Source: Modestobacter sp. VKM Ac-2985
GTDB taxonomy: Bacteria > Actinomycetota > Actinomycetes > Mycobacteriales > Geodermatophilaceae
Length of the DNA stretch: 64,000 nucleotides
Assembly (NCBI RefSeq): GCF_026967925.1
Contig: NZ_JAPVBI010000001.1
Coordinates: 620,001 to 684,000 of the forward strand
Direction: 5' to 3'
Below are positions 3,999-22,245 of this stretch, piece after piece; within the stretch, counting starts at the first letter, position 1, and every line of letters begins with the position of its first letter. The translations under genes and the position numbers were made by a program. The notes under the pieces were generated by a model that had not been told where the DNA came from, ran no database searches, and worked only from the letters and a program-made list of their open reading frames with translations.

Positions 3999-4002
3999 TC
4001 CT

Positions 4003-4028
4003 GGGGCCGGGGTCGCGACCTCGGCCCC
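4003..4028. repeat. Dispersed palindrome family C, copy 1 (possible bidirectional terminator)
   Basis: A 26-bp near-perfect palindrome with GGGGCCG/CGGCCCC ends and a GTCGCGAC centre lies between the converging glgC and udgX stops. The second copy is at 32583-32608. Confidence 0.75.
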
Positions 4029-4037
4029 TCTCGGGGA

Positions 4038-4721
4038 TCAGGCGAGGGCGTGGGCGACGACCCGGAGGTCGGTCACGAGTGCGTCGTAGGCGGCGGCGCG
4101 GGCGTCGTCCGGCGTCCGGAGCACGGCCGAGGGGTGCGTCGTGGCCAGCACCCAGGTCTGGTGCGGGGCGTCCTCGTCCTGGTCGGCGTCGGGGAGCGCC
4201 GCCTCCGCCGCGCGGATGCCCGGTGGGGTCCACGGGAGCAGCTGCCCGTGCTCGCGGGTGATCCGGAACGACGGCGAGATCAGCGCCTTGGCCGCCACCG
4301 CGCCCAGGCAGACCACCACCTCCGGCTGGAGGACGGCGAACTCCGCCTCCAGCCACGCGCGGCAGGCCCGCAGGTGCTCGGCACCCGGGGACTGGTGGAT
4401 CCGGCGCTTGGGGGTCGGCGTGAACCGGAAGTGCTTGACCGCGTTCGTCACGTAGGCGTCGCGCCGGTCGATGCCGGCCTCGGTCAGCGCCCGGTCCAGC
4501 AGCTTCCCGGCCGGGCCGACGAACGGCTCGCCGGTGCGGTCCTCCTGGTCGCCCGGCTGCTCACCGACGAAGACGACCCGCGCCGTCTCCGGGCCCTCGC
4601 CGAAGACGGTCTGGGTGGCCGGCTCACCGAGCTCGCACGCCCGGCAGCCGGCCGCCGCCTCCCGCAACCCGGCCAGGCCGACACCGCTGGGCACCTGGGC
4701 GGGGTGGTCACGTTCGCTCAT
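4038..4721 (-). CDS. udgX: UdgX-type uracil-DNA glycosylase
   Basis: The 227-residue protein belongs to the Fe-S uracil-DNA glycosylase superfamily. It has CRACELG (two Fe-S cysteines), the motif A variant GEQPGDQED, the KRRIHQSP loop, further cysteines at LRACRAW and VVCLGAVAAK, and the HPSAVLR motif. The KRRIH loop is diagnostic of UdgX, in which the loop histidine forms a covalent adduct with the uracil-site sugar (known for the mycobacterial enzyme). ATG 4719-4721 is the first start that places the Fe-S motif near the N-terminus. It is divergent from the ABC exporter. Confidence 0.9.
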   Translation of the reverse strand: MSERDHPAQVPSGVGLAGLREAAAGCRACELGEPATQTVFGEGPETARVVFVGEQPGDQEDRTGEPFVGPAGKLLDRALTEAGIDRRDAYVTNAVKHFRFTPTPKRRIHQSPGAEHLRACRAWLEAEFAVLQPEVVVCLGAVAAKALISPSFRITREHGQLLPWTPPGIRAAEAALPDADQDEDAPHQTWVLATTHPSAVLRTPDDARAAAYDALVTDLRVVAHALA

Positions 4722-4775
4722 GCGTCGATGACACCCGACCGGGGGCGCCACCGCAGCCCGAGATCGGCTGTTCAC

Positions 4776-4804
4776 TTGACGATGTGGAAAGTGATGCGAC
4801 AGGC
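4776..4804 (+). promoter_or_regulatory. Possible promoter of the ABC exporter operon
   Basis: A TTGACG -35 hexamer (4776-4781) is followed 17 bases later by a poor -10. An inverted CACTT...AAGTG surrounds the -35. This is weak evidence only. Confidence 0.3.
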
Positions 4805-4860
4805 TCCCAGTCGTTGCGGATGGCAAGGGCTGCTCGCACACGACGGACACCGGAGGAGCA

Positions 4861-5769
4861 GTGCTCGAGTTCGATGGCCTGTACAAGGCCTACGGCAGCA
4901 ACCAGGTGCTCGAGGGGGTGAGCTTCACCGTGGCCCCGGGGCAGATGTTCGGCTTCTGCGGGTCCAACGGGGCGGGGAAGACCACCACGATGCGGATCGC
5001 CATGGGGCTCGCGCGCGCCGACGCCGGGAAGGTGCGCTGGTCGGGCCGGCCGGTCGACGAGATCGTCCGTCGCCGGATCGGCTACATGCCCGAGGAGCGC
5101 GGCCTGTACCCGAAGATGAAGGTCGGCGAGCAGCTGAGCTACTTCGCCCGGCTGCACGGGCTGGACGCCCGCGCCGCCGGACGCGCCGCCGAGCACTGGG
5201 CCGAGCGGCTCGGGCTGGGGGAGCGGCGCGGCGACCGGGTGGAGAAGCTGTCGCTGGGCAACCAGCAGCGGGTGCAGCTGGCGGCGGCGCTGGTCAGCGA
5301 GCCCGACGTGCTGATCCTCGACGAGCCGTTCTCCGGCCTGGACCCGGTGGGCGTCGACTCGCTGGCCGAGGCGCTGCTGGAGCAGTGCCGACGCGGGGTC
5401 CCCGTCGTCTTCTCCAGCCACCAGCTGGACCTGGTGGAGCGGCTGTGCGACGCCGTCGGCATCCTCGCCCGCGGGAGGATCGTGGCCAGCGGGACCGTCG
5501 CCGAGCTGCGGTCCACGACCGTCGGCCGGCAGCTGCGGGTGGTCGCCCCCGACGCATCGCCCGGCTGGGCCAGTGCGGTGCCCGGTGTGCGGGTGGTCTC
5601 CGAGCAGCGCGGTGACACCGTGCTCGAGCTCGCGCCCGGCACAGACGACCAGCAGGTGCTCGCCGCCGCCCTGGCCACCGGCCGGGTCACCCACTTCGCG
5701 TGGCGGGAGCCGACCCTGGTCGAGCTCTTCCGCGACGCCGTCACGACCCCTCAGGAGGTGGCGGCATGA
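4861..5769 (+). CDS. ABC exporter ATP-binding subunit (NatA/DrrA type)
   Basis: This 302-residue ATPase has Walker A GSNGAGKTT near residue 40, signature LSLGNQQRVQLA, Walker B VLILDEPFSGLDP and the H-loop VVFSSHQLD. The C-terminal domain of about 80 residues is typical of exporters with ABC-2 permeases. GTG 4861 follows GGAGGAG. The stop overlaps the permease start (ATGA). The pair resembles sodium-exporting NatAB systems, but the cargo cannot be read from sequence. Confidence 0.88.
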   Translation: MLEFDGLYKAYGSNQVLEGVSFTVAPGQMFGFCGSNGAGKTTTMRIAMGLARADAGKVRWSGRPVDEIVRRRIGYMPEERGLYPKMKVGEQLSYFARLHGLDARAAGRAAEHWAERLGLGERRGDRVEKLSLGNQQRVQLAAALVSEPDVLILDEPFSGLDPVGVDSLAEALLEQCRRGVPVVFSSHQLDLVERLCDAVGILARGRIVASGTVAELRSTTVGRQLRVVAPDASPGWASAVPGVRVVSEQRGDTVLELAPGTDDQQVLAAALATGRVTHFAWREPTLVELFRDAVTTPQEVAA

Positions 5770-6998
5770 CCGCGACCGCACACCGCGACGTCCGCACGCC
5801 TGCGCCGGCACACTCCGACGTGAAGCCGCACAGCCCCGCACAACTGGTCCGCCTCGTGGCCGGCCGGGAGATCTCCACCCGGATCCGGGACAAGGGCTTC
5901 CTGGTCAGCTCCGCGGTGCTGATCCTGCTGATCATCGGCCTGATGGTCTTCCAGGTGGTCATCGGCGGCGGGGAGTCCACCAGCCGGATCGGCCTGGTCG
6001 GCGGCGACCAGGCCGTCGAGCAGGTGCTGCGGCAGCAGGGCCAGGCGCTGGACACCGAGGTGACCGTGGTCCAGCTGGCCGACGAGGACGCCGCCCGCAC
6101 CGCCGTGGCCGAGGAGGACGTCGAGGCCGCGCTGCTGGACCCGACCGGCAGCCGCCCCGAGCTCCTGGTGCAGACCGCGGGCGGGAGCGCCGAGGACCTC
6201 GTGCAGAGCGCCCTGGCCGCCCTCTCCGTGGCCGACCAGCTCAGCGAGGCCGGGGTGCAGCTCGAGCCCGCCCCGGAGGTCGACGTCGTCGCCCTGGAGG
6301 GAGCCGAGGACGATCGTTCGCAGGCCACGATCGTCGCCCTGCTCGGGGTGGGGCTGCTGTACTTCCTCTTCATCCTCTTCGGGCAGTTCGTCGCGCAGGG
6401 CGTCGTCGAGGAGAAGTCGAGCCGGGTGGTCGAGCTGCTGCTGGCCACCATGCGCCCGTGGCAGCTGCTCGCCGGCAAGATCATCGGCCTGGGGGCGCTC
6501 GGGCTGATGCAGATCGCGGTGATCGCCGTGGTCGGGGTCGCCGGCGCGCTGGCCTTCGACGTCGTCGACCTGCCGGGGCAGCTGATCGGCACCGTGCTAA
6601 CGGTGCTGGCCTGGTTCGTGATCGGCTACGCCTTCTACGCCGCGGTGTTCGCGGTGGCCGCCTCGCTGGTCAGCCGGCAGGAGGACCTGGGCAGCGTGCT
6701 GACGCCGACGACCATCCTGCTGGTGGTCGGGTTCGTCATCGCCCTGCAGGCCGCCCAGGACCCGAGCAGCACGATGGCCACGGTGACCTCCTACGTCCCG
6801 GGTCTGTCGCCGATGGTGATGCCGGTGCGGCAGGCCGCCGGCGAGGCCGCGTGGTGGGAGGTCGGGCTCGCCGTCCTGCTGATGGTCCTGGCGATCGCCG
6901 TCATCGTCCGGATCGGTGGACGGATCTACGCCGGTGCACTGCTCCGCACCGGTGGCCGGCTCAAGCTGCGCGAGGCCCTGGCGGCCGAGAAGTCCTGA
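5766..6998 (+). CDS. ABC-2 family permease (NatB-like)
   Basis: The 410-residue permease has one membrane segment near residue 45 (LVSSAVLILLIIGLMVFQVV), a soluble extracytoplasmic domain of about 120 residues, and a C-terminal cluster of five or six membrane helices with EEKSSRVVELLLATMRPWQLL, the conserved ABC2_membrane_3 motif. It is coupled to the upstream ATPase by a four-base overlap and probably forms the membrane part of the same exporter. Confidence 0.85.
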   Translation: MTATAHRDVRTPAPAHSDVKPHSPAQLVRLVAGREISTRIRDKGFLVSSAVLILLIIGLMVFQVVIGGGESTSRIGLVGGDQAVEQVLRQQGQALDTEVTVVQLADEDAARTAVAEEDVEAALLDPTGSRPELLVQTAGGSAEDLVQSALAALSVADQLSEAGVQLEPAPEVDVVALEGAEDDRSQATIVALLGVGLLYFLFILFGQFVAQGVVEEKSSRVVELLLATMRPWQLLAGKIIGLGALGLMQIAVIAVVGVAGALAFDVVDLPGQLIGTVLTVLAWFVIGYAFYAAVFAVAASLVSRQEDLGSVLTPTTILLVVGFVIALQAAQDPSSTMATVTSYVPGLSPMVMPVRQAAGEAAWWEVGLAVLLMVLAIAVIVRIGGRIYAGALLRTGGRLKLREALAAEKS

Positions 6999-7011
6999 CC
7001 CCGAGCCGCCC

Positions 7012-7095
7012 GGTGATCAGGTCACCTGGTCGTGTGGGGACCTACCTGGTGGTCTGCCGCCAGGTAGGTCCCCCTCGGATCAGGCCACCTGATCC
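7012..7095. repeat. Palindrome family B, copy 1, around a 14-bp terminator-like hairpin
   Basis: A perfect 14-bp stem (7036-7049 with 7060-7073, GGGGACCTACCTGG) has a ten-base loop. It is flanked by two near-palindromes, GATCAGGTCACCTGGTC (7015-7031) and GATCAGGCCACCTGATC (7078-7094). The region separates the converging permease and SMP-30 genes, so bidirectional termination is likely. A related near-palindrome adjoins another 14-bp hairpin at 40919-40994. Confidence 0.7.
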
Positions 7096-7112
7096 CAGGC
7101 GGACGACGGTGG

Positions 7113-8030
7113 TCAGCGCTGGCGCAGGCCGCTGAGCGGGCCGCGGTAGGCGTGCGCCGGCGGGCCGCTCACCCCGGGCCGCGCGGTGAACAGCCGGCCG
7201 GCGTCGGGCTGGGCGGCCCGGGTGGCGTCGTCCATCCCGTGCACCGACGTGCTGATCACCAGCAGGTCGCCGGCGAACGCGCAGCTGGTGGTGTTCTGGG
7301 CGTCGACCTCGACGACCGCGAGCAGCTCACCGTCGGGGGACCAGCGCCGCACCTGGGCGCCGCCCCACAGCGCCGTCCAGAGACAGCCCTCGTCGTCGAC
7401 GGTGAGGCCGTCGGCGACGCCGTCGGGGTCCTCGCTGAAGTCCAGCAGCACCCGGCGTCGCCCGAACGCGCCGGTGTCCAGGTCGTAGTCGAAGGCCCAG
7501 ACCACCTGCTGCCCGGAGTCGGAGAGGTACACGGTGCGGTCGTCGGGGGACCAGCCCAGCCCGTTGGAGATGGTGAGGCCGTCGAGCACGGTGCTGACCG
7601 TGCCGTCGAGGTCGAGCCGGTAGAGGCGGCCGGCCCCGGGCTGCTCGTCGAAGGCCATGGTGCCGGCGAAGAACCGGCCGGCCCGGTCGCAGGCGCCGTC
7701 GTTCATCCGGGTGCCGCCCGCGGACTCCGAGCCACCCTCCCCGGCGAGTTCGATCAGCACCTCCGCCGTGCCGTCGGCGGCCAGCCGGGTGATGCCCGCC
7801 CCGGCGCCCAGCAGCCAGCCGCCGGCGGCCGCCGGGGCGACGAAGCCCACCGTCTCACCGCCGCGGTGCTCGGCCACCGGGAGGACGTCGTCCCCGCTGA
7901 CCGTGCCGCGCCGGACCAGCCCGGCGGTGATGTCCACCCAGAGCAGCTCCTGCGCGGCGGCGTCCCAGATCGGGCCCTCTCCGTGCTCGGCCGGGACGGG
8001 GCTGGTGGGTGTCGCCTGCAGTCGGATCAC
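7113..8030 (-). CDS. SMP-30/gluconolactonase/LRE-family protein
   Basis: This 305-residue single-domain six-bladed propeller has the conserved EGPIWD at the N-terminus, [18 protein letters not shown], the [18 protein letters not shown] metal-site strand and [15 protein letters not shown]. Family members are metal-dependent lactonases acting on sugar lactones. GTG 8030 is chosen because the family begins just before the EGPIWD strand. It is divergent from ppc with about 55 bp between starts. The exact substrate is unknown. Confidence 0.85.
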
Positions 8031-8085
8031 CCGCCCATCCTCCCCGGGACACCGGGCCGTCACACCGGTTGCGGATACTGCCCCC

Positions 8086-10890
8086 GTGTCCGAAGCCACC
8101 GTCGACGTTGCCGACCTGCGCCCTTCCGGGGGTCCCACCGACCCGGACGACCGCACCGACGAGCCCTTGCGGGCCGACATCCGACTGCTGGGCCGGGTCC
8201 TCGGGGAGGTGATCGGCGAGCAGGCCGGCACCGACGTGCTGGAGCTGGTCGAGGCCACCCGGGTCGAGGCGTTCCGGATCCGCCGCTCCGAGGTCGGCCG
8301 CTCCGAGCTCGCCGACCGGCTGGCCCAGCTCGACCTGCGCGAGGCCAACCACGTCGTCCGGGCGTTCAGCCACTTCTCGTTGCTGGCCAACATCGCCGAG
8401 GACGTGCACCACGAGCGCCGCCGCCGGCACCACCGCCGCGAGGGCTCGCCCCCGCAGAAGGGGAGCCTGGCGGCGTCGCTGGACCTGCTGGACGAGGCCG
8501 GCCTGGACGGCGACACCGTGGCCCGTGAGCTGGCGGGCGCGCTCGTCGTCCCGGTGGTCACCGCGCACCCGACCGAGGTGCGCCGCCGGACGATCTCCCA
8601 GGTGCAGCAGCAGGTCACCGACCTGATCCGGCAGCGCGACGACGCCGGGCCGTACGGGATCGACGAGCGGGCCTGGGCCGCGCACCTGTCCCGCGAGGTG
8701 CTCACCCTCTGGCAGACGGCGCTGCTGCGACTGTCCCGGCTGCGGCTGGCCGACGAGATCGACGAGGCGCTGCGCTACTACGACCTGTCGCTGTTCGAGG
8801 TCGTCCCGGCGATCAACACCGAGCTCCGCCAGGCCCTGCGCGAGCGCTGGCCGGACGCCGACCTGCTCGCCACCCCGATGCTGCAGCCGGGCTCCTGGAT
8901 CGGCGGTGACCGGGACGGCAACCCGTTCGTCACCGCCGACGCGGTCCGCCGGGCCACCACCCGGCAGGCCGAGACGGCGCTGCGGCACCACCTCGCCGAG
9001 CTGATCTGCCTGGCCGACGAGCTGTCGATGTCCGACCGGCTGGTGACGCCCACCGACGCGCTCTACGCCCTGGCCGAGGCCTCCGGGGACGACTCGCCGT
9101 TCCGCGGCGACGAGCCCTACCGGCGCGCGCTGCGCGGGGTCTACCGGCGGCTGGCCGCGACCGCGCGTCGGGTGCTCGGCGCGGTGCCGGGGGAGGAGTC
9201 GGACGTCGACCTGCTGCCCTACGCCCTCCCCGAGGAGCTGATCGCCGACCTCGCGACGGTCGACGCCTCGCTGCGCAGCCACGGGGCGGGTGCGCTGGCC
9301 GACGACCGGCTGGCCCGGCTGCGCGACGCGGTGGAGGTCTTCGGCTTCCACCTGTGCGGGCTGGACATGCGGCAGAACTCCGCGGTGCACGAGGAGGTGC
9401 TGGGCGAGCTGCTGGCCTGGGCCGGGGTGTGCGAGGACTACGCCGCACTCGACGAGGCGGCCCGGGTCGAGCTGCTCACCGGGGAGCTGCGGCTGCGCCG
9501 GCCGCTGGTGCGCCCGGGCGCCGAGCTCTCCGAGCTGGCCCGTGGCGAACTGGACCTGCTGGTGGCGGCCGCCGAGCAGGTGGCGCTGCTCGGCCCGCGC
9601 GCGATCCCGAACTACGTGATCAGCATGTGCGAGTCGGTCAGCGACGTGCTGGAGGTCGCCGTCCTGCTCAAGGAGGTCGGGCTGCTCGACCCGGGCGCCG
9701 AGGGAGGCCCGCGCTGCTCGGTGGGCATCTCCCCGCTGTTCGAGACGATCGGCGACCTGCAGGCCGCCGGCACGATCCTGGCCGCGATGCTGGACCAGCC
9801 GCTGTACCGGGCGCTGGTGGCCAACCGCGGCGACGACCAGGAGGTGATGCTCGGCTACAGCGACAGCAACAAGGACGGCGGCTACCTGGCCGCCAACTGG
9901 GCGCTGTACCGGGCCGAGCTGGCGCTGGTCGAGGTCGCCCGCGCCAACGGCATCCGGCTGCGGCTGTTCCACGGCCGCGGCGGCACCGTCGGCCGGGGCG
10001 GCGGCCCCAGCTACGAGGCGATCCGGGCGCAGCCGCCGGGTTCGGTGGCCGGGGCGCTGCGGATCACCGAGCAGGGCGAGGTGATCGCGGCCAAGTACGC
10101 CTCACCCGACCTGGCCCGCCGCAACCTGGAGGCGCTGGTCGCGGCCACGCTGGAGTCGACGCTGCTGGACATCGAGGGCCTGGGCGCGGACGCCGAGGAG
10201 GTCTACGCGCTGCTGGACGACCTGGCGGCGCGGGCCCAGGGCGCCTACCGGGCGCTGGTGCACGAGACGCCGGGCTTCGTCGAGTGGTTCCGCGCCGCGA
10301 CCCCGATCCGGGAGCTGGCTGAGCTGAACATCGGCAGCCGGCCGCCGTCCCGCAAGGCCGGGGACAAGATCGCCGACCTGCGGGCTATCCCGTGGGTGTT
10401 CAGTTGGTCGCAGGCCCGGATCATGCTGCCCGGCTGGTACGGCACCGGGACGGCGCTGGAGTCCTGGGTCGACGGCTCACCGGAGCGGCTCGCCCAGTTG
10501 CGGGACCTGCACCGGCGGTGGCCGTTCTTCCGCACCGTGCTGTCCAACATGGGGATGGTGCTGGCCAAGACCGACCTGGAGCTGGCCGCCCGGTACGCCG
10601 AGCTGGTGCCCGACCCCGAGCTGCGCGACCGGGTGTTCAGCCAGATCACCGCCGAGCACGAGCGGACGGTGCGGATGCTGCTGGCGGTCACCGGCGACGA
10701 GCAGCTGCTGGCCGACAACCCGTCGCTGGCCCGGTCGATCCGCAACCGGTTCCCCTACCTGGAGCCGCTGCACCACCTGCAGGTGGAGATGCTGCGCCGC
10801 CGCCGCGAGGGGGACGACGACGAGCTGGTGCGCCGCTGCATCCAGCTGTCGGTCAACGGCGTCGCCACCGCCCTGCGCAACAGCGGCTGA
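8086..10890 (+). CDS. ppc: Phosphoenolpyruvate carboxylase
   Basis: PEPC adds bicarbonate to PEP to replenish oxaloacetate. The 934-residue protein is full length. It shows the catalytic [12 protein letters not shown] segment, [28 protein letters not shown], the glycine loop [24 protein letters not shown] and the family C-terminus [16 protein letters not shown] 8086 has GATACT six bases upstream, which fits a leaderless transcript. An upstream open frame shares its reading frame but is the antisense of the SMP-30 gene. Confidence 0.96.
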
Positions 10891-10902
10891 GGTGGTCCGG
10901 GC

Positions 10903-10945
10903 ACGCTTGTGCTCTGCTCACTGGTGGTGAGCAGAGCACAAGCGT
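10903..10945. terminator. 19-bp perfect hairpin between converging genes
   Basis: ACGCTTGTGCTCTGCTCAC (10903-10921) pairs perfectly with 10927-10945 around a five-base TGGTG loop. It lies between the ppc and aminotransferase stops and can act in both directions. No T-run is present. Confidence 0.75.
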
Positions 10946-10985
10946 CCCGACCGGGGCAGGCCCGCGCCGAGGGGTGCGGGCCCGC

Positions 10986-12116
10986 TCAGCTGCGGGCGGC
11001 CTCGATGGCGGCGGCCAGCCGGCGCACGCCCTCGTCGACGTCGCCGGGCTGTACCGCCGAGTAGGCCAGCCGGAAGCTGGTGTGCCCGCCCTCGAGCAGG
11101 AAGTCGGTGCCGGGCACGATCGCGACCCCGCGGGCAGCGGCCTCGGTGGTGATCCGGGTGACGTCGTGGCCCTCGCCCTCGGGCAGGGACACCCACAGGA
11201 AGTAACCGCCCTCGGGACGGCGGAAGGTCGCCTGCGGCAGGTGCGTGCGCAGCGCGTCGTCCAGCAGCCCGACCCGCTCGGCCAGCGCCGACTTCACCCG
11301 CTCCAGCGCGGCCGGGAACCGGTCGCCCTGCAGGTAGGCGTGCACGGTGCCCTGGGCGACCATGTTCGGTGCGATGTAGGTGTTGGTGGCCCGCACCCGG
11401 ATCTTCTCGATGATCGCCGGCGGCCCGACCAGGTAGCCCACCCGGATGCCCGGGCAGACGGTCTTGGAGAACGACGAGGCGTAGACGACGTGCTCGCTGG
11501 CCGCGCCGCCGTCCAGCTCCAGCATCCGCGGCAGCGGCTCCCCGCTGAACCGGATGTCGACGTACGGGTCGTCCTCGAACAGCACGAACCCGTGCTCGCG
11601 GGCCAGCTCCAGCAGCCGCTCGCGCTTGGCCAGCGAGAGCGTGTAGCCGGCCGGGTTCTGGAAGTTGGGGATGACGTGCGCCAGCGTCGGCCGCAGCCCA
11701 CCGTCCAGCAGGGCGGCGAGCTCGTCGACGGAGATGCCGTCCTCCTCCAGCGTCACCAGGTGCACGTCGGCGCCGCGCGAGCGCAGCCCGAGCAGGGTGC
11801 GGTCGTAGGTCGGTCGCTCGGTGATCACCGCAGCGCCCGGGGTGGCCAGCTCGTCGAAGAGGAAGGCGTCGGCCTGCATCGAGCCGTTGGTCACCAGCAC
11901 GTGCTCGACCGGGACGCCGTGCTTCTCGGCGATCCACTTTCGCAGCGGCACGTAGCCGACCGCCGTCCCGTAGCCGGTCATCCCGGCCGGGTCGGAGTCG
12001 AACGCGGCGACCGCGGCCTGCTTGAGGCCCTCGACGTCGACGATGTCGGTCGACGGGGCCCCGCGGGCGAAGGAGATCATCGTGGTGGCGGGCGAGGTCT
12101 GTGCTGAGCCGGTCAC
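10986..12116 (-). CDS. PLP-dependent class I/II aminotransferase (2-aminoadipate-transaminase-like)
   Basis: This fold-type I aminotransferase of 376 residues has the PLP lysine in SSFSKTVCPGIRVGY, the NPAGYTLS loop, FEDDPYVDI and a C-terminal SFRLAYS arginine. The fold matches the catalytic half of MocR-type proteins, but the DNA-binding domain is absent, so it acts as a plain enzyme (aromatic amino acid or 2-aminoadipate transaminase group). GTG 12116 is preferred over the start nine codons upstream because conserved sequence begins at FARGAPS. The precise substrate is not decidable. Confidence 0.82.
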   Translation of the reverse strand: MTGSAQTSPATTMISFARGAPSTDIVDVEGLKQAAVAAFDSDPAGMTGYGTAVGYVPLRKWIAEKHGVPVEHVLVTNGSMQADAFLFDELATPGAAVITERPTYDRTLLGLRSRGADVHLVTLEEDGISVDELAALLDGGLRPTLAHVIPNFQNPAGYTLSLAKRERLLELAREHGFVLFEDDPYVDIRFSGEPLPRMLELDGGAASEHVVYASSFSKTVCPGIRVGYLVGPPAIIEKIRVRATNTYIAPNMVAQGTVHAYLQGDRFPAALERVKSALAERVGLLDDALRTHLPQATFRRPEGGYFLWVSLPEGEGHDVTRITTEAAARGVAIVPGTDFLLEGGHTSFRLAYSAVQPGDVDEGVRRLAAAIEAARS

Positions 12117-12150
12117 GCGACCGAGTCTGCCGTACCGCGCCACCCCCGGC

Positions 12151-13548
12151 TCAGCCCTCCTGCGCCGCTGCGGCGGCTCGGACGGCGTCCAGCAGCTGCT
12201 GCCGGTCGTGGAGGGTGGTGCGGGCCCGGCCGTGCACCGCGCCGAGGGCGATCTCGGCGGCGTCGATGGCCCGCCAGTCGGAGAGCAGCACGGGGTGCCC
12301 GCCGCGGGCGAGCAGGGTGTCGACCCAGTCGTCGTCCCCGCCGGGCGCCAGCACCCCGGCGGCCACGTCGGCCAGCAGCGAGGCGACGGTCTCCCGGGCG
12401 TCGTGCTTGTTGGTGCCGACGACGCCGGTCGGCCCCCGCTTGATCCACCCGGCCACGTACTCGCCCCGGCTCACCCCGCCGTCGCGGAGCACCCGGCCGG
12501 CGTCGTGCGGCACCGTGCCGCCGTCCAGCGGCAGCCCCGGCAGCGCGTGCCCGCGGTAGCCGACCGAGCGCACCACCAGGTCGGCCGGGACGACGTCGAG
12601 CTCCCCGGTGCCGACCGCGCGGCCGTCGGTGTCGACCCGGGTGCGCTCCACCTCCACCCCGATGACCCGGTCGGTGCCGAGCAGCCGGACCGGGCGGGCG
12701 TGGAAGCGCAGCCGGACGCTGACCGTGCCGGGGGCGGCTTCGTGTCCGGCGTAGTCGGCGAGTGCGGCGAGGTTGCGGGCGACGTGCCGGTCCTCGGCGG
12801 CCAGCGCCGCGTCCCCGGCGTCGGTGAGGTCGGCCGGGTCGACCAGCACCGTCGCGGCGGCCAGGTGGCCCAGCTCGCGCAGCTCCTGGGTGGTGAAGCT
12901 GGCCTGTGCCGGGCCGCGGCGGCCGAGCACGGTGATCCGCTCGACCGGGGCGTCGGCCAGCGTGTCCAGCACGTGGTGCGGCATGTCGGTGGGGTGCAGC
13001 TCGGCGGCGGAGCGGGCGAGCACGCGGGCCACGTCGAGGGCCACGTTGCCCACGCCGACCACCACGACGTCCCGGGCCCGGGACACCAGCTCCTCGACCC
13101 GCGCCCGGTCGGCGTCGGGGTGCCCGCAGTACCAGGCGACGACGTCGGTGGCGGCCAGGCTGCCGGGCAGCTCCTCGCCGGGGATGCCCAGCGCGCGGTC
13201 ACCGGCCGCGCCGTAGGTGTAGACGACGGCGTCGACGTGCCGGCGCAGCTCGTCCAGGGCGAGGTCGGTGCCGATCTCCACGTTGCCGACGAAGCGCACC
13301 CGCTCGTGGTCCAGCGTGTGGTGCAGCGTCTCCCGCAGCGCCCGCATCTTCAGGTGGTCGGGGGCGATGCCGTGCCGCACCAGGCCGAACGGGGTGGGCA
13401 GCCGGTCGATCAGGTCGACGGCGACCGGGACGTCGTCCTGCCCGGCGAGGGCGTCGGCGGCATAGATGCCCGCCGGCCCGGCGCCGACGACGGCGACGCG
13501 CAGCGGGCGTCCGGGCAGCGATCGGTCGGGCACAGTGGGTTGGGCCAC
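12151..13548 (-). CDS. fprA: Ferredoxin/adrenodoxin-type NADP+ reductase
   Basis: The 465-residue flavoprotein passes electrons from NADPH to ferredoxins, for example for P450s. The FAD dinucleotide motif is VVGAGPAGIYAADAL, the NADP motif GVGNVALDVARVLA, and the C-terminal FAD contact GWIKRGPTGVVGTNK. Architecture and length match mycobacterial FprA, without an added ferredoxin domain. GTG 13548 places the Rossmann motif near residue 20. It is divergent from the monooxygenase gene across 82 bp. Confidence 0.9.
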   Translation of the reverse strand: MAQPTVPDRSLPGRPLRVAVVGAGPAGIYAADALAGQDDVPVAVDLIDRLPTPFGLVRHGIAPDHLKMRALRETLHHTLDHERVRFVGNVEIGTDLALDELRRHVDAVVYTYGAAGDRALGIPGEELPGSLAATDVVAWYCGHPDADRARVEELVSRARDVVVVGVGNVALDVARVLARSAAELHPTDMPHHVLDTLADAPVERITVLGRRGPAQASFTTQELRELGHLAAATVLVDPADLTDAGDAALAAEDRHVARNLAALADYAGHEAAPGTVSVRLRFHARPVRLLGTDRVIGVEVERTRVDTDGRAVGTGELDVVPADLVVRSVGYRGHALPGLPLDGGTVPHDAGRVLRDGGVSRGEYVAGWIKRGPTGVVGTNKHDARETVASLLADVAAGVLAPGGDDDWVDTLLARGGHPVLLSDWRAIDAAEIALGAVHGRARTTLHDRQQLLDAVRAAAAAQEG

Positions 13549-13630
13549 GCCCGCATCGTCGTCCCGATGACGGGTAGGCGCCAGGGTGAACCCCGGGCAG
13601 TCGAGCCCGACCACCGCTGAGGAGTCCTGC

Positions 13631-13942
13631 GTGTCCATCACGATCGTCGCCACCATCTCGCCCAAGCCCGGCCGCGCCGATGCCGTCCGGGAGGCGTTCA
13701 CCGCCGCCATCCCGAAGGTGCACGAGGAGTCCGGCTGCGAGCTGTACGCCCTGCACGAGGACGGCTACGGCTTCGTGATGATCGAGCGCTGGGCCACCCA
13801 GGACGACGTCAAGGCCCACGGGGCGGGGGACACGTTCAACCAGCTCACCGAGAGCGTCAAGGACGACCTGACCGAGCCGATCGGCGTCCGGCTGCTGCAG
13901 GCCGTCCCGGCGGGCGACGAAGCCAAGGGCGCCCTCCGCTGA
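13631..13942 (+). CDS. Antibiotic biosynthesis monooxygenase (ABM)-domain protein
   Basis: The 103-residue protein is a single ABM ferredoxin-like domain (VSITIVATISPKPGRADAV, then GCELYALHEDGYGFVMIERWA). Relatives such as YgiN act as small quinol monooxygenases or heme-degrading dimers; no specific substrate can be named. GTG 13631 has GGAG at good spacing. It ends six bases before palindrome A1 and converges on nei1. Confidence 0.8.
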   Translation: MSITIVATISPKPGRADAVREAFTAAIPKVHEESGCELYALHEDGYGFVMIERWATQDDVKAHGAGDTFNQLTESVKDDLTEPIGVRLLQAVPAGDEAKGALR

Positions 13943-13947
13943 AGGGG

Positions 13948-14005
13948 GCATAGGAGGCTCTCCACCCGGTATGGCGCCGTAGACCGGGTGGAAAGCCTCC
14001 TATGC
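13948..14005. repeat. Dispersed palindrome family A, copy 1
   Basis: Two 23-bp arms (13948-13970 and 13983-14005), differing at one pair, enclose a 12-bp loop. The arm begins GCATAGGAGGCT and ends CCACCCGGT. The same arm design recurs at 54128-54185 and 55210-55267. This copy lies between converging genes and may terminate both. Confidence 0.85.
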
Positions 14006-14013
14006 CTCGGCCC

Positions 14014-14823
14014 TCAGACCGCTTGGCAGGTGGGGCACCAGAAGAGGTTGCGGCCGACCATGAGCTCGGTGCGCACCTCGGTGCCGCAGATGCGGCAGGG
14101 CAGCCCGGAGCGCCGGTAGACGTAGTGCGCGTCCTCGCGCAGCGCCGGGCCGCGCCGGCGTTCGCGGTCCTCGCGCTCGGTGGTGACGATCCGGCCGGCC
14201 TTGACCCCGGCCTTCATCAGCGTCACGAGGTCGGCCCACATCGCGTCCCAGGTGGCGGCGTCGACGTCCCGGCCGAGCCGGAAGGGGCTCAGCCGCTGCC
14301 GGAACAGCACCTCGGCCCGGTAGACGTTCCCGACGCCGGCCAGCACGGCCTGGTCCATCAGCAGCGCGCCGATGGTGGTCCGGCTGCGGGAGATGCGGGT
14401 GAACGCCTTCGCCGGGTCCGACCGCCGGCGCAGCGGGTCCGGGCCCAGCCGGTCGAGGATCAACTGCACCTCGCCGTCGGTGATCAGGTCGCAGGCGGTG
14501 GCGCCGCGCAGGTCGGTCCACACGCCCTCGCCGTCCTCGCCCGGTCCCTCCCAGCGCATCCGCAGGGCACCACGGGGCGCGGGCGGCAGGCCGGTGCCGG
14601 AGGTGAACTTCCCGTAGAGGCCCAGGTGGACGTGGACGACGTCTGGGCCGAAGAAGGCGAACAGGTGCTTGCCGTAGGAGGTCACCTCGTCGAGCACCCG
14701 GCCGTCGAGCAGCTCGGCCGGACCGGCGAAACGGCCCTGCGGGCTGGTCACGTGCACCTCGCGGCCGGCGAACGCGGCCTGCTGCTCGCGGGCCAGTCGG
14801 AACAGGGTGTGGCCCTCAGGCAC
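14014..14823 (-). CDS. nei1: Fpg/Nei-family DNA glycosylase (endonuclease VIII 1)
   Basis: This base-excision enzyme of 269 residues removes oxidised pyrimidines and has AP-lyase activity. The processed N-terminus PEGHT supplies catalytic Pro and Glu. The conserved Lys is in SYGKHLF, the H2TH region is LMDQAVLAGVGNVYRAEVLF, and the C-terminal zinc finger has CRICG...CPTC. PEGHT rather than PELPE marks Nei over Fpg, and length and motifs closely match mycobacterial Nei1. It sits next to the photolyase, forming a small DNA-repair neighbourhood. Confidence 0.93.
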   Translation of the reverse strand: MPEGHTLFRLAREQQAAFAGREVHVTSPQGRFAGPAELLDGRVLDEVTSYGKHLFAFFGPDVVHVHLGLYGKFTSGTGLPPAPRGALRMRWEGPGEDGEGVWTDLRGATACDLITDGEVQLILDRLGPDPLRRRSDPAKAFTRISRSRTTIGALLMDQAVLAGVGNVYRAEVLFRQRLSPFRLGRDVDAATWDAMWADLVTLMKAGVKAGRIVTTEREDRERRRGPALREDAHYVYRRSGLPCRICGTEVRTELMVGRNLFWCPTCQAV

Positions 14824-14894
14824 GGACGATCACGCCGTCCAGCTTCACCCGCGCCGGCCGCCTCCGCCACGACGGCCCCCGTGACCCACCCGAC

Positions 14895-14930
14895 ACCCGA
14901 GGGCAGAAATGGCCATTTCTGCCCTCGGGT
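14895..14930. repeat. 36-bp perfect palindrome (family D core)
   Basis: The two 18-bp arms (ACCCGAGGGCAGAAATGG and its exact complement) meet without a loop. The AAATGGCCATTT centre is shared with the family D copies at 1328 and 59093, but the flanks differ. It lies between nei1 and phr, ending at the phr stop codon, and can fold as a terminator hairpin. Confidence 0.8.
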
Positions 14931-16297
14931 CAACGGGCGCGGACGGCGGCGTAGCGGTCCAGGGACACCTGCCGCTCGTGGGCGTGGTCGACGACCGGCT
15001 CGGGGTAGCCGGCCGGGACGCCGCCGGGCGCCGTCCACGGCTCGTGCACGTGCTTCGGGTCCAGGTCGCGCAGCTCGGGCACCCAGCGCTTCACGTAGGC
15101 GCCGTCCGGGTCGAACTTCTTGCCCTGGGTGATCGGGTTGAACACCCGGTAGTACGGCGAGGCGTCGGTGCCGGTGCCGGCGACCCACTGCCAGCCGTGG
15201 TTGTTGCTGGCCAGGTCACCGTCGACCAGGTGCTGCATGAACCACCGCGCGCCGCGGGTCCACTCCTGGTGCAGGTCCTTGACCAGGAACGAGGCGACGA
15301 TCATCCGCACCCGGTTGTGCACGTAGGCCTCACCGAGCAGCTGCCGCATTCCGGCGTCGACGATCGGGAAACCGGTGCGGCCGGTCTCCCAGGCGCGCAC
15401 CAGCTCCTCGGCGTCCGGCCCGGAGTCGTAGCCCATGCCCTGCAGCTGCGGGTTGAGGTACTCCCGGGCGGAGTCGGGCCGGTGCCACAGGACGTCGGCG
15501 TAGAAGTCGCGCCAGGCCAGCTCGTCGGTGTAGCGGCGCACCGACTCCGAGCCCTGCTCGGCGGCCAGGTCGGCGAGCAGCGTCCGCGGGTGGATGCAGC
15601 CGTACTTCAGGTACGCCGACAGCCGGCTGGTCCCGTTGGTGCCGGGGCGGTCGCGGCCCTCGTCGTACCCGAGCAGCCGTTCGTCCCGGAACCGGTGCCA
15701 GGCCTCCCGGGCCGCGGCCTCGCCGGCCGGAGGGAGCTGGACGTCGTCCAGGTCGGGCCGCGGCGGGGGCTCGTCGGAGCGCACGTCGTGCTGCCACGGG
15801 ACCGGGTCGGGGCGGACGGCGGGGGAGTGCCAGCCGTGCTCCCGCCAGGCGCGGGCGAACGGGGTGAAGACCCGGAACGGCGTCCCGTCCCGCTTGACCA
15901 CCCGGCCGGGCGCCACCGCGTACGGCGAGCCGGTGCGCACCAGCGGGACGTCGCCCAGCGCCCGCTCCACCGCCTGGTCGCGCCGCCGTCCGTACGGGCC
16001 GGCGTCGGCGGTGACGTGCACGCTCACCGCCTCCAGCTCGGCGACCAGCCGGGGGAGGACGGCGGCCGGGTCGCCGGTGCGCGTGACCAGGGCGCCGCCG
16101 GTCGAGGCGCCGAGCTCGGCCAGGCAGTCGAGCAGGAACCGCCGGCGCGGCTCGCCGGAGGGGCCGTAGAGCCGGTCGTCGAAGACGAAGACCGGGACGA
16201 CGGCGCCCCCGGGCCCGGCGGCGTCGACGGCGGCGAGGAGGGCCGGGTGGTCGTCCAGACGCAGGTCGCGGCGGAACCAGAGCAGGGCGGTGGGCAC
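14930..16297 (-). CDS. phr: Deoxyribodipyrimidine photolyase (CPD photolyase, class I)
   Basis: The 455-residue flavoprotein reverses UV cyclobutane dimers using blue light. An N-terminal Rossmann antenna domain (LLWFRRDLRLDDHPAL) precedes the FAD-binding helical domain with the GRTGFPIVDAGMRQL and RMIVASFLVKDLHQEW motifs and ASNNHGWQWVAGTGTDA. GTG 16297 is the natural start. A light-repair gene fits a sun-exposed stone or soil actinobacterium. Confidence 0.95.
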   Translation of the reverse strand: MPTALLWFRRDLRLDDHPALLAAVDAAGPGGAVVPVFVFDDRLYGPSGEPRRRFLLDCLAELGASTGGALVTRTGDPAAVLPRLVAELEAVSVHVTADAGPYGRRRDQAVERALGDVPLVRTGSPYAVAPGRVVKRDGTPFRVFTPFARAWREHGWHSPAVRPDPVPWQHDVRSDEPPPRPDLDDVQLPPAGEAAAREAWHRFRDERLLGYDEGRDRPGTNGTSRLSAYLKYGCIHPRTLLADLAAEQGSESVRRYTDELAWRDFYADVLWHRPDSAREYLNPQLQGMGYDSGPDAEELVRAWETGRTGFPIVDAGMRQLLGEAYVHNRVRMIVASFLVKDLHQEWTRGARWFMQHLVDGDLASNNHGWQWVAGTGTDASPYYRVFNPITQGKKFDPDGAYVKRWVPELRDLDPKHVHEPWTAPGGVPAGYPEPVVDHAHERQVSLDRYAAVRAR

Positions 16298-16339
16298 CCG
16301 GCTGAGCCTAGGAAGACCCCGCCGGTGCCGCTGGGTGGA

Positions 16340-16660
16340 TCAGCTGTGGGCGGGGGCGAGGCCGAAGGTGGGCCGGTCGGCCTCGGCCACGAGGTCCAGC
16401 TGCTCGGGGTGGTCGACCAGGTACTTCCGGATGAACGAGCAGTAGGGGAGCACGTGCAGGCCGCGCTCGCGCGCGGCGGTGAGGACGGTGCCGACCAGCT
16501 GCGTCCCGAGGCCTCTGCCGCCCATCGCCGGGTCGATCTCGGTGTGCGGCAGGGTCATCAGGCCCTGGTCGACGTGGTAGCTGGCCAGGCCGACGACGCG
16601 CTCGCCGTCCCGGATCTCGAAGCGGCCCCGCTCGGGGACGTCGACGACCGTGATCTCCAT
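16340..16660 (-). CDS. Small GNAT-fold N-acetyltransferase (YidJ-like)
   Basis: This 106-residue protein is a minimal GNAT domain of the Acetyltransf_CG type. ATG 16660 starts MEITVVD, followed by GLASYHVDQGLMTLPHTEID, the acetyl-CoA loop GGRGLGTQLVGTVL and LPYCSFIRKYLVDHPE. The last motif is typical of this short family, whose substrates are generally unknown. It ends about 40 bp before the phr start and could share a message with it. Confidence 0.82.
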   Translation of the reverse strand: MEITVVDVPERGRFEIRDGERVVGLASYHVDQGLMTLPHTEIDPAMGGRGLGTQLVGTVLTAARERGLHVLPYCSFIRKYLVDHPEQLDLVAEADRPTFGLAPAHS

Positions 16661-19691: not shown

Positions 19692-20618
19692 ATGAACAAG
19701 CACCTGACCACCCGAGGCGCACGCCTGGCCGCCGGCCTCGCCGCCGTCGCACTCACCGCCACCGCCTGCGGTGGGGACGCCGAGGAGGACACCACCGCCG
19801 CCGGCGGGACGTCGTCCGGCAGCGACTGCGAGACCGTCAACCTGGGCTTCATCCCGTCCTGGACCGACGGCCTGAGCATGGCCCACCTGTGGGACGGCGT
19901 CCTCGGCGAGCAGGGCATCGAGGTCGAGATGACCGAGATCTCCGAGGCGGCTCCGCTGTACGCCGGCCTGGCCGGGGGCGACGTCGACGTCTACCCGTCC
20001 GCCTGGTCCGAGGTCACCCACGCGGCCTACATGGAGGAGTACGGCGACCAGCTCGAGGACCTCGGTGCGTGGTACGAGGGCGCCAAGCTGACCTTCGCCG
20101 TCCCGGAGTACACCGACATCGAGTCGATCGCCGACCTGGCTGGCAACGCCGAGATGTTCGACGGCCGGATCGTCGGGATCGAGCCGGGTGCGGGCCTCAC
20201 CGCCACCACCAAGGACAGCGTCATGCCGACCTACGGGCTGGAGGGGGACTACACGCTGGTCGAGTCCTCCACGACCGCGATGCTGGCCGAGCTGCAGGCG
20301 GCGACCGACGCCAACGAGGACATCGTCGTCACCCTGTGGCGCCCGTTCTGGGCCAACAGCGAGTTCCCGGTCAAGGACCTCGCCGACCCGGAAGGCGCCC
20401 TGGGCGACGCCGAGGGCCTGCACACGCTCGCGCGTGAGGGCTTCGCGGCCGACTGTGCCGACGTGGCTGCGATGATGGAGAACGCGACCCTCACCGACGA
20501 GCAGTACGGCTCGCTGGAGAACCTGGTCGTCAACGAGTACGGCGAGGGCCGGTACGCCGAGGCCGTCGAGGCCTGGCTCGAGGAGAACCCGGACTTCATG
20601 GAGTCCCTGCAGGCCTGA
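19692..20618 (+). CDS. proX: Glycine betaine-binding lipoprotein
   Basis: The 308-residue OpuAC-type substrate-binding protein starts with a lipoprotein signal: basic MNKHLTTRGAR, a hydrophobic stretch and lipobox LTATAC, so it should be tethered outside the membrane. The mature part shows VNLGFIPSWTDGLSMAHLW and GDVDVYPSAWSEVTHAAY, with Trp and Tyr residues usual for the quaternary-amine aromatic cage. It follows proW by 99 bp and is closed by a strong hairpin at 20661. Confidence 0.92.
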   Translation: MNKHLTTRGARLAAGLAAVALTATACGGDAEEDTTAAGGTSSGSDCETVNLGFIPSWTDGLSMAHLWDGVLGEQGIEVEMTEISEAAPLYAGLAGGDVDVYPSAWSEVTHAAYMEEYGDQLEDLGAWYEGAKLTFAVPEYTDIESIADLAGNAEMFDGRIVGIEPGAGLTATTKDSVMPTYGLEGDYTLVESSTTAMLAELQAATDANEDIVVTLWRPFWANSEFPVKDLADPEGALGDAEGLHTLAREGFAADCADVAAMMENATLTDEQYGSLENLVVNEYGEGRYAEAVEAWLEENPDFMESLQA

Positions 20619-20660
20619 TCCACGGTGCCGCCGCCTCCCGGGCGCCGGCACGCAGGACGC

Positions 20661-20694
20661 GAGGGGCCCGACGGCGCATGCCGTCGGGCCCCTC
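20661..20694 (+). terminator. 15-bp perfect hairpin after proX
   Basis: GAGGGGCCCGACGGC pairs perfectly with GCCGTCGGGCCCCTC around a GCAT loop. It closes the proVWX operon ahead of tRNA-Arg. Confidence 0.8.
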
Positions 20695-20768
20695 GGCCGT
20701 CCGATACCCTCTCGTCGGCAACCGGGTCCGCGCCCAGCGGCTCGGTGGTGGTGCGCCGCACCGCCGCA

Positions 20769-20844
20769 GCCCCCGTAGCTCAGGGGATAGAGCATCGGTT
20801 TCCTAAACCGTGTGCCGCAGGTTCGAATCCTGCCGGGGGCACCA
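20769..20844 (+). tRNA. tRNA-Arg (anticodon CCT)
   Basis: The acceptor stem is GCCCCCG/CGGGGGC, the D-arm contains TAGCTCAGGGGATAGAGC, the anticodon loop TTCCTAA gives CCT, and the T-arm is CAGGTTCGAATCCTG. CCA is encoded at 20842-20844. It reads AGG codons. The part from the anticodon through the T-arm is duplicated at 21534-21568, marking this tRNA as an integration site. Confidence 0.95.
20802..20836. repeat. attL-like repeat inside tRNA-Arg
   Basis: These 35 bases, from the anticodon to the 3' side of the T-stem, recur at 21534-21568 with two mismatches and an exact 732-bp offset. This is the usual position of tyrosine-integrase crossover sites. Confidence 0.85.
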
Positions 20845-20866
20845 AGAAACACCAGCTCAGGCCTGT

Positions 20867-21010
20867 TGTCGATACCGAGTGATCGGGACGAGAGTCGGAT
20901 CTGGGCACGCGATGGACACGGGCGGCGGCATCGATGCGGTCGGCGTCCAGCTCGTCTCCGAAGAAGGTGCTCGTACAGGTCGAGCGTCATCGCCGCCGAA
21001 GCCCGGGCTG
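20867..21010 (-). pseudogene. Tyrosine integrase, decayed C-terminal fragment
   Basis: Reading leftward, one frame gives ARASAAMTLDLYEHL (MTLD starts at 20990). After a one-base shift the next frame gives FFGDELDADRIDAAARVHR. Together these match the C-terminal end of actinobacterial phage-type integrases (the A-MTLD-Y-HLF-DELDA pattern just after the catalytic tyrosine). The upstream catalytic core is missing and no proper stop follows the shifted tail before the tRNA. Its orientation toward the att site is as expected. Confidence 0.75.
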
Positions 21011-21020
21011 GGTCCGCCGT

Positions 21021-21353
21021 ATGGACGTCGCCCTTCTCTACTTCGACGGCTGCCCCAACTGGGAGGTGGCGGACGCGCGCCTCCGCGACGCACTCGCGGA
21101 GATCGGATGCGGCGATGTCCGGGTCGAGCACCGCGCCGTCAGCACGCCCGAAGAAGCGGAAGCGGCGGAGTTCCGAGGCTCTCCGACCGTGCTGGTGAAC
21201 GGGCAGGATCCCTTCCTGGACCAGGACAGCCCCGTGGGGCTGTCCTGCCGGGTGTACCGGACAGCGGACGGCCTCGCTGGCTCACCGACCGTCCGCCAAC
21301 TGATCGGAGTGCTCCGTGAAGCTGCTGGGCCGTCGCTCGACTCCCGCGACTGA
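21021..21353 (+). CDS. Thioredoxin-like small protein (DF/(seleno)protein-type)
   Basis: The 110-residue protein opens MDVALLYFDGCPNWEVADARL. The YF-GCP-W motif places a single redox cysteine at the thioredoxin-fold position, and GSPTVLVNGQDPF is the cis-proline-like strand. Related proteins often accompany metal-resistance genes; this is from memory and not shown here. It is cargo of the tRNA-Arg element remnant. Its last 38 bases overlap the next gene. Confidence 0.65.
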   Translation: MDVALLYFDGCPNWEVADARLRDALAEIGCGDVRVEHRAVSTPEEAEAAEFRGSPTVLVNGQDPFLDQDSPVGLSCRVYRTADGLAGSPTVRQLIGVLREAAGPSLDSRD

Positions 21354-21501
21354 CGAAACGGTGACCTGCGGCTGCTGTGAACGGGAGCGCCCGTCGAGGG
21401 CAGCCCATGAGCTCGGTGGCACGCCCGGTGTGTACATCTGCCGGACCTGCGCGGCTTGGGTCGTCGGGAGGACGCTGCGCGTTAGGCGGACGCTCCGCTA
21501 G
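21316..21501 (+). CDS. Small zinc-ribbon protein
   Basis: This 61-residue protein starts at GTG 21316, with GGAG seven bases upstream. Four cysteines in CGCCERE and YICRTCAAW form a likely treble-clef zinc ribbon, similar in spacing to the ClpX N-terminal zinc-binding domain. The tail is basic. Function is unknown. Overlap with the preceding gene and the location inside the att repeats suggest shared ancestry as island cargo. Confidence 0.55.
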   Translation: MKLLGRRSTPATDETVTCGCCERERPSRAAHELGGTPGVYICRTCAAWVVGRTLRVRRTLR

Positions 21502-21533
21502 CCGCTTCTGCTCGGTGGCGACTCCCCCGGGGG

Positions 21534-21568
21534 CCTCAACCGTGTGCCGCAGGTTCGGATCCTGCCGG
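21534..21568. repeat. attR-like partial tRNA-Arg copy
   Basis: This is the second copy of the 20802-20836 sequence, with mismatches at the bases matching 20805 and 20826. It lacks the acceptor stem and 5' half and cannot be a functional tRNA. A CCCCCGGGGG palindrome lies just upstream at 21523-21532. Confidence 0.85.
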
Positions 21569-21582
21569 CACCCACCCGGTGG

Positions 21583-22245
21583 TCACTGCAGTTCGACGAA
21601 GCGCTCCACGTGGGCCGGCCGGCCGGCGATGACGATCTCCGCGCCGTACGTGAGCACGGTGTCGTAGTCGGCGTGGGTGTAGCTCGCCGTGTTCTCCGGC
21701 TTCACGGACACCACCGTGACGTGGTGCCGCTTCCGCAGACCGGTCTGGCCCAGCGGGACGCCGACGATCTCCCGCGGCGGCTTGGTCTTGGCGAACACCC
21801 ACTGCGGGTCCAGCTCCACCCAGTCCAGCAGGCGGCCGGCGACCAGGTGCGCGATCCGCTCGCCCATCTCCTGCTCGGGGAAGACCACGTGATGGGCGCC
21901 GATGCGGCTCAGGATGGTCGCCTGCTGTCGGGTGACGGCCTTGGCCCAGATGGTGGGGATCTCGAGCTCGGACAGCAGCGCGGTGGTGAGGATGCTCGCC
22001 TCGAGGTGGCCGCCGATGGCCACGACGACGCGGCTGAAGTCGGCGATGCCGATCTCGGTCAGCGCGTCCGCGTCGGTGGTGTCGGCGATGACGACCTGGC
22101 CCAGCTGCCCCGACAGCCGCTGGACGATGTCGGGCCGGTTGTCCACGGCGAGCACCTCGGTGCCGCCTCGGGCCAGCTCCAGGGCGAGTGCGGTGCCGAA
22201 CCGGCCCAGGCCGAGCACGGCGACGGGGTCCTTGTGGCTAGCCAA
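21583..22245 (-). CDS. ktrA: Potassium uptake regulatory subunit (RCK domain)
   Basis: The 220-residue cytosolic ring protein gates KtrB. The N-terminal Rossmann RCK_N domain has VLGLGRFGTALALEL and the acidic VDNRPD after strand two, binding ATP/ADP or NAD(H). RCK_C follows from about residue 140 and binds c-di-AMP in characterised homologues. It starts inside the end of ktrB (eight-base overlap), so the two form one operon. Confidence 0.92.
   Translation of the reverse strand: MASHKDPVAVLGLGRFGTALALELARGGTEVLAVDNRPDIVQRLSGQLGQVVIADTTDADALTEIGIADFSRVVVAIGGHLEASILTTALLSELEIPTIWAKAVTRQQATILSRIGAHHVVFPEQEMGERIAHLVAGRLLDWVELDPQWVFAKTKPPREIVGVPLGQTGLRKRHHVTVVSVKPENTASYTHADYDTVLTYGAEIVIAGRPAHVERFVELQ

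Follow-up and report, generated by a model that had tools for sequence, protein, structure and literature searches.

We analyzed the region behind the tRNA-Arg(CCT) gene of Modestobacter sp. VKM Ac-2985 (family Geodermatophilaceae) in a 64,000-nucleotide stretch of contig NZ_JAPVBI010000001.1 (positions 620,001 to 684,000). This stretch is referred to below as the window, and positions are counted from its first letter. The tRNA gene is followed by a copy of its own 3' half, and the two copies, which we call the attachment (att) sites attL and attR, enclose the broken end of an integrase gene and two small open frames. The features are listed with the evidence for each in brackets.

20769..20844, plus strand: tRNA-Arg(CCT), the integration target, whose 3' half is the tRNA-side repeat, attL (ARAGORN, Rfam RF00005, repeat comparison)
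20859..21010, minus strand: C-terminal stub of a tyrosine integrase, frameshifted and directed toward the tRNA, with approximate limits (profile match at about 20924-21010; the remainder to 20859 comes from tblastx to locus L080 alone)
21021..21353, plus strand: thioredoxin-like protein of the DF family, 110 amino acids, in its Cys form, CPNW (NCBIfam NF049942, identity to genome G013, dN/dS, AlphaFold2)
21316..21501, plus strand: Cys-rich protein of 61 amino acids (CGCC...CRTC), overlapping the DF gene (identity to G013, dN/dS)
21534..21568, plus strand: downstream repeat, attR, identical to the tRNA 3' half at 33 of 35 positions (repeat comparison)

We conclude, with a probability of about 0.9, that this insert is a decayed tRNA-Arg(CCT) island whose cargo has outlived its mobility genes. 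An earlier note on this DNA had described it as an island that inserted and then lost its body. The insertion is well supported by our data, but the loss was overstated, because two genes remain and are held under purifying selection. These two plus-strand frames (21021-21353 and 21316-21501) had gone unmentioned.

The repeat pair is the most direct evidence. Bases 34-68 of the tRNA gene (20802-20836; 35 bp, from the anticodon to the T-stem) recur at 21534-21568 with two mismatches and an offset of 732 bp, exactly as the earlier note had reported. The second-best place for this segment, on either strand of the window, matched at 22 of 35 positions, and the best score in 100 shuffles of the 64-kb window, compared on one strand, was 23. 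The remaining direct repeats found by a scan of 20700-21700 were 15-17 nt long and 82-88% identical, which is the chance expectation. The tRNA was the sole match in an Rfam scan, and two places in the same genome, beyond the region itself, matched the tRNA part alone at 76-82% identity. The claim that both att sites are preserved could be kept in part: both copies are present, but the attR of the window is imperfect and stops short of the tRNA 3' end. The attR of Modestobacter sp. VKM Ac-2982 (G013), which carries the same insert, extends to the tRNA 3' end and then into sequence present at the empty site.

We compared the locus with those of relatives by means of the two genes on its chromosomal flanks.

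19692..20618, plus strand: gene for a glycine-betaine-type binding protein, opuC, left flank (Pfam OpuAC, synteny)
21583..22245, minus strand: trkA, encoding a TrkA_N/TrkA_C protein, right flank (Pfam, synteny, stop-codon distance)

In two genomes of the same genus, G004 and G018, the site is empty: opuC, the tRNA gene and trkA follow each other unbroken, and only 5 bp separate the tRNA from the trkA stop codon. In the window they are 738 bp apart, so that the insert added a net 733 bp; in G013 it measures 936 bp. About 250 bp separate the second cargo gene from attR in G013, compared with 32 bp in the window, suggesting that erosion continued separately in both. G008 has a 3.1-kb insert with an apparent two-component system and a worn repeat (31/43). 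In G022, a 13.3-kb island extends on one contig from the tRNA to a second repeat copy (32 of 34 aligned bases). Judged by eye, this island (L050, about 3245-16500, tRNA-forward) carries P450-, ferredoxin-, dehydrogenase- and hydrolase-like genes, which are apparently catabolic; its flanks match only in part, and neither opuC nor trkA was found on the island contig. The island's own integrase is cut down to about 99 codons. In M. caceresii (G021), the tRNA and attR are on separate contigs, and attR adjoins trkA. Thus, the genus includes the empty site in G004 and G018, the short insert that G013 shares with the window, and a full island in G022; the empty and full states had been anticipated by the earlier note. 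The classing of sites is incomplete (G003, for example, lacks trkA in the compared stretch).

In a tree built from the opuB, opuC, trkA and trkH genes of six genomes, the window genome (G000) and G013 were sisters with a support of 1.0, and G004, G018, G021 and G008 fell outside them. It would be simplest if the island had inserted once, before G000 and G013 split; an older insertion, lost cleanly elsewhere, would be a less simple alternative.

We then consider the integrase. In the stretch of the minus strand that runs from 21010 to the tRNA, one frame of the stub gives TADPARASAAMTLDLYEHL and another gives FFGDELDADRIDAAA, so the peptides quoted in the earlier note do lie in different frames and face the tRNA. 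The family search used as its query the C-terminus of the integrase fragment adjoining the same tRNA in G022, and 111 of the 112 family genomes matched it. Counts of the tRNA neighbourhood rest on the 20 best-ranked loci (L061-L080). Seventeen of these adjoin tRNA-Arg(CCT), the query's own locus L061 counted; the other three adjoin tRNA-Arg(CCG), adjoin a partial tRNA copy, or are a short piece in which no tRNA was seen. The C-termini of these integrases read like GHASAAMTLDRYGHLFGDELDAVADRMDAARAD and mostly stop near the tRNA (18 of the 20 compared). A frameshift-tolerant profile built from 16 of the 20 loci gave the window stub a score of 88.6, whereas the best of 300 shuffles reached 38.8 and the best of 398 other window stretches 33.6. 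The same scoring, applied to the 300 bases that follow the tRNA in each further genome of the genus, gave 140.2 for G022 and at most 27.4 for the other 20 (G011 offered fewer than 300 bases). The profile score thus places the C-terminal GHASAAMTLDRYGHLF region adjoining the tRNA with the tRNA-Arg subfamily of tyrosine integrases, and the fragment resembles an integrase family sited at the same tRNA. The complete catalytic domain, Pfam PF00589, is absent from the stub and present in an intact relative of 355 amino acids in G102, which lies between repeats 5.9 kb apart. Phage integrases of Gordonia, Mycobacterium and Corynebacterium are 36-38% identical to the G102 protein (best listed, 10 of 515 records); two of the 515 phage records match it at 60-80%, neither being among the matches listed, and one viral contig matched weakly.

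The same tRNA segment marks other sites in the family. With at most 2 mismatches, a 32-bp repeat occurs at least once in 99 of the 112 genomes and at least twice in 24 (hand count), the second copies being tRNA fragments or possibly second tRNA genes. Seventeen pairs lie on the same contig, 0.73-32 kb apart, and the window's pair is the shortest; this count leaves out a pair 597 kb apart in G065 and worn copies such as that of G013, which fall below the pattern, and includes a pair in G002 whose tRNA is itself on another contig. In G002, where the tRNA is on a different contig, an integrase lies between two additional copies of the tRNA-Arg repeat (L024, C90:3649 and 9127), a possible tandem accretion. 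A 3.3-kb island in G101 (L187) contains an integrase C-terminus and a small helix-turn-helix-like protein. The sequence past its attR resembles the element end behind the tRNA, which suggests a second, lost neighbour element. In G112 (L186), the repeats are 1.57 kb apart; no gene was called between them, and the first 300 bases after the tRNA gave no integrase signal. This is another eroded site. Genes in the relatives' inserts and in the homologue neighbourhoods described below were called with a simple codon-usage script in place of a standard gene finder.

The two cargo genes behave differently from the stub. Both frames are open in the window and in G013, and the proteins are 93% (DF) and 90% (Cys-rich) identical between the two genomes. 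The ratio of nonsynonymous to synonymous substitution rates (dN/dS) between them was 0.22 over 98 codons for the DF gene and 0.12 over 55 codons for the Cys-rich gene, values inside the range of five flank genes (0.045-0.336), and the synonymous excess for the pair jointly was significant (Fisher p 2e-5, from rounded counts). The stubs of the window and G013 are identical at 95 of 138 positions (68.8%), with indels. The cargo pair is kept by purifying selection while the integrase stub decays. The earlier note had held that conserved coding frames in the insert of all close relatives would speak against a remnant; G013 alone carries the same insert with conserved frames, and these frames are the cargo, which not all relatives carry.

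The DF protein scored 71.4 bits against NCBIfam NF049942, above the curated cutoff of 70, and therefore belongs to that family. The family is annotated as a (seleno)protein family, whereas the window protein has Cys at the CPNW site. Its AlphaFold2 model had a mean confidence (predicted local distance difference test, pLDDT) of 93.3, and a fold search with this model gave weak thioredoxin matches (best E 0.012, template modelling score 0.47). An in-frame TGA is seen in many DF matches (18 of 21 loci, L083-L103); a reading of it as selenocysteine was rejected in favour of an ordinary stop codon, and the stop is at the C-terminal end in 17 of the 18. The 61-amino-acid Cys-rich protein matched no Pfam or NCBIfam family above cutoff and probably binds zinc.

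DF homologues occur in 33 of the 112 family genomes, and a homologue near tRNA-Arg(CCT) on the same contig was seen in G000 and G013 only, a count in which fragmented assemblies may hide further cases. Plasmids carry homologues too: 102 plasmid records matched, none of them reaching 60% identity even at its best place. Of 242 related stretches found in named genomes, we retained the best 80 and inspected the neighbours of 20 of them. By eye, genes for metal P-type ATPases, cadmium transporters or copper-type proteins lay near the DF homologue in 11 of the 20 loci, and Pfam confirmed them in three of the 11 (L107, L109 and L130). Pfam also confirmed ArsR- or MerR-type regulators at L130, L125 and L177. 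By eye, no metal-type neighbours were seen at L119, L120 and L162 among the 20. Because the homologues have metal-resistance neighbours, the function of the cargo is probably redox- or metal-related. No paper on the function of the DF family was found in our literature search.

These data can be arranged into the following history. In the common ancestor of G000 and G013, a tyrosine-integrase island would have inserted into the 3' half of tRNA-Arg(CCT). Recombination within the anticodon-to-T-stem segment would have rebuilt the tRNA and displaced the old 3' half downstream, where it became attR. Almost all of the DNA from the integrase C-terminus up to about 10 bp ahead of the DF gene start would then have been lost in a deletion, which would have made the element immobile on its own. 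The leftovers would be the integrase stub, the DF and Cys-rich cargo and a decaying attR.

Several results weigh against this history. The G013 stub scored 35.8 against the integrase profile, and its own 300 shuffles reached 29.4, a small margin. Pfam and PHROGs searches with the separate pieces of the stub detected no integrase. In plain tblastx, the stub gave an E of 2e-7 and the best of 200 shuffles 1.7e-6, only about eight-fold worse, and several other window stretches beat the stub, down to 3e-28. These better scores probably come from conserved flank genes within the compared loci. Because shuffles and other window stretches scored comparably or better, the plain tblastx control was replaced by the frame-tolerant profile test. 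The 20 integrase loci are not a random sample, since they are the best matches to a query from the same tRNA site. Finally, among the 112 family genomes DF was seen at tRNA-Arg(CCT) in G000 and G013 only, so no intact island with this cargo was seen at this site; fragmented assemblies could hide some.

Other explanations account for parts of the data. The 0.73 kb between the att sites might itself be mobile, a satellite-like, non-autonomous miniature element moved in trans by a related integrase. Such an element would keep both att copies, as found here, and would have partners available, given that matching integrases occur in 111 of the 112 family genomes; a small island of 3.3 kb, with an integrase C-terminus, exists in G101. 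But the only two of the 112 genomes in which DF was seen at tRNA-Arg(CCT) are sisters in the six-genome tree, their attR copies differ and are worn, and the stub is a pseudogene that a purpose-built minimal element would not need. We therefore think that mobility of the short insert is very improbable. A partial duplication of the tRNA 3' half, with two native genes between the copies and no mobile element, is hardly credible. Partial tRNA copies also arise by other routes, and the short, frameshifted state of the stub agrees with such an origin. However, the tRNA and trkA are contiguous at the empty sites of G004 and G018, the integrase homology lies in the expected place and orientation, and the repeat recurs in at least two copies in 24 of the 112 family genomes.

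It is also conceivable, but in our view unlikely, that the DF and Cys-rich genes were not the original cargo and joined a dead island later by another route. At no other tRNA-Arg(CCT) site that could be seen on an assembled contig was there a DF match nearby, which speaks for a late entry, as does the location of DF homologues at other places and on plasmids. Against it, the repeats around the cargo in 20700-21700 are the tRNA pair and short chance-like ones only, and the sequence joining the cargo to the stub is common to G000 and G013.

How the cargo of such an island could be expressed is suggested by its position. The pair lies 176 bp downstream of the tRNA and shares its orientation, and a scan of 20600-21700, limited to sigma-70-type promoters, found no promoter-like or terminator-like site. 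Since the direction is shared and no terminator-like site was found between them, the tRNA promoter could drive the cargo, and its transcription from there is possible. A strong GC-rich hairpin occupies 20660-20695, in the gap that separates opuC from the tRNA (folding of a 101-nt stretch gave z -5.3); it is absent from the terminator list because it has no T run. We offer as a tentative and rather doubtful extension that the dead island became an operon of the host: in destroying the integrase, the deletion would have put the DF/Cys-rich pair behind the tRNA promoter, and selection would keep the pair in the two sisters while both sides erode.

One further feature lies between the tRNA and the stub.

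20852..20860, plus strand: degenerate copy of GC(A/T)GGTCAG, 7/9, CCAGCTCAG (motif scan)

The motif occurs at 8/9 or better in 17 of 18 related occupied sites (L061-L080), 12-13 nt from the start of the terminal CAC (12-14 nt from the tRNA over all 18 sites), and at 7/9, position 12, in the window and G013. It may be an integrase arm site. For the window it is weak evidence, because 7/9 copies are also found at some sites without a detected element and the empty sites of G004 and G018 have it at 8/9, as GCTGGTCAC, nearer the tRNA.

The locus is a clear case of an island that lost its mobility and kept its cargo, and within a single genus the same site can be seen empty, occupied and eroded; it also shows tRNA-Arg(CCT) to be a busy integration site in the family. 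None of the papers listed in a literature search concerned this site in Modestobacter, which is no proof of absence. Like the islands described in the Islander report (PMC4383910), the window insert has a tRNA gene and a same-orientation 3' fragment of it downstream. By the filters given there, Islander would discard it, because a frameshifted C-terminal stub takes the place of an integrase open reading frame and the repeats are 732 bp apart, below the length range of 2-200 kb; the empty sites in G004 and G018 are evidence beyond those filters. Remnants of this kind would be missed by island finders that, like Islander, require an integrase frame and a length of 2 kb.

The parent of the Modestobacter insert may have been an actinomycete integrative and conjugative element (AICE), a phage or another type of element. 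No AICE hallmark (a traB-type transfer gene, a rep gene or an integrase) was found by Pfam among the frames of the insert. According to PMC13346255, actinophage VWB integrates into a tRNA-Arg gene; like the inferred parent of our insert, it has a tyrosine recombinase that uses tRNA-Arg, and the shared segment is part of the tRNA, but VWB is a working phage. Cargo that outlives mobility genes has already been described for Streptomyces AICEs, as has accretion at a tRNA-Arg gene (PMC9513070). The present case differs from them in that it comes from Modestobacter, spans only 0.73 kb, and has had the selection on its cargo measured.
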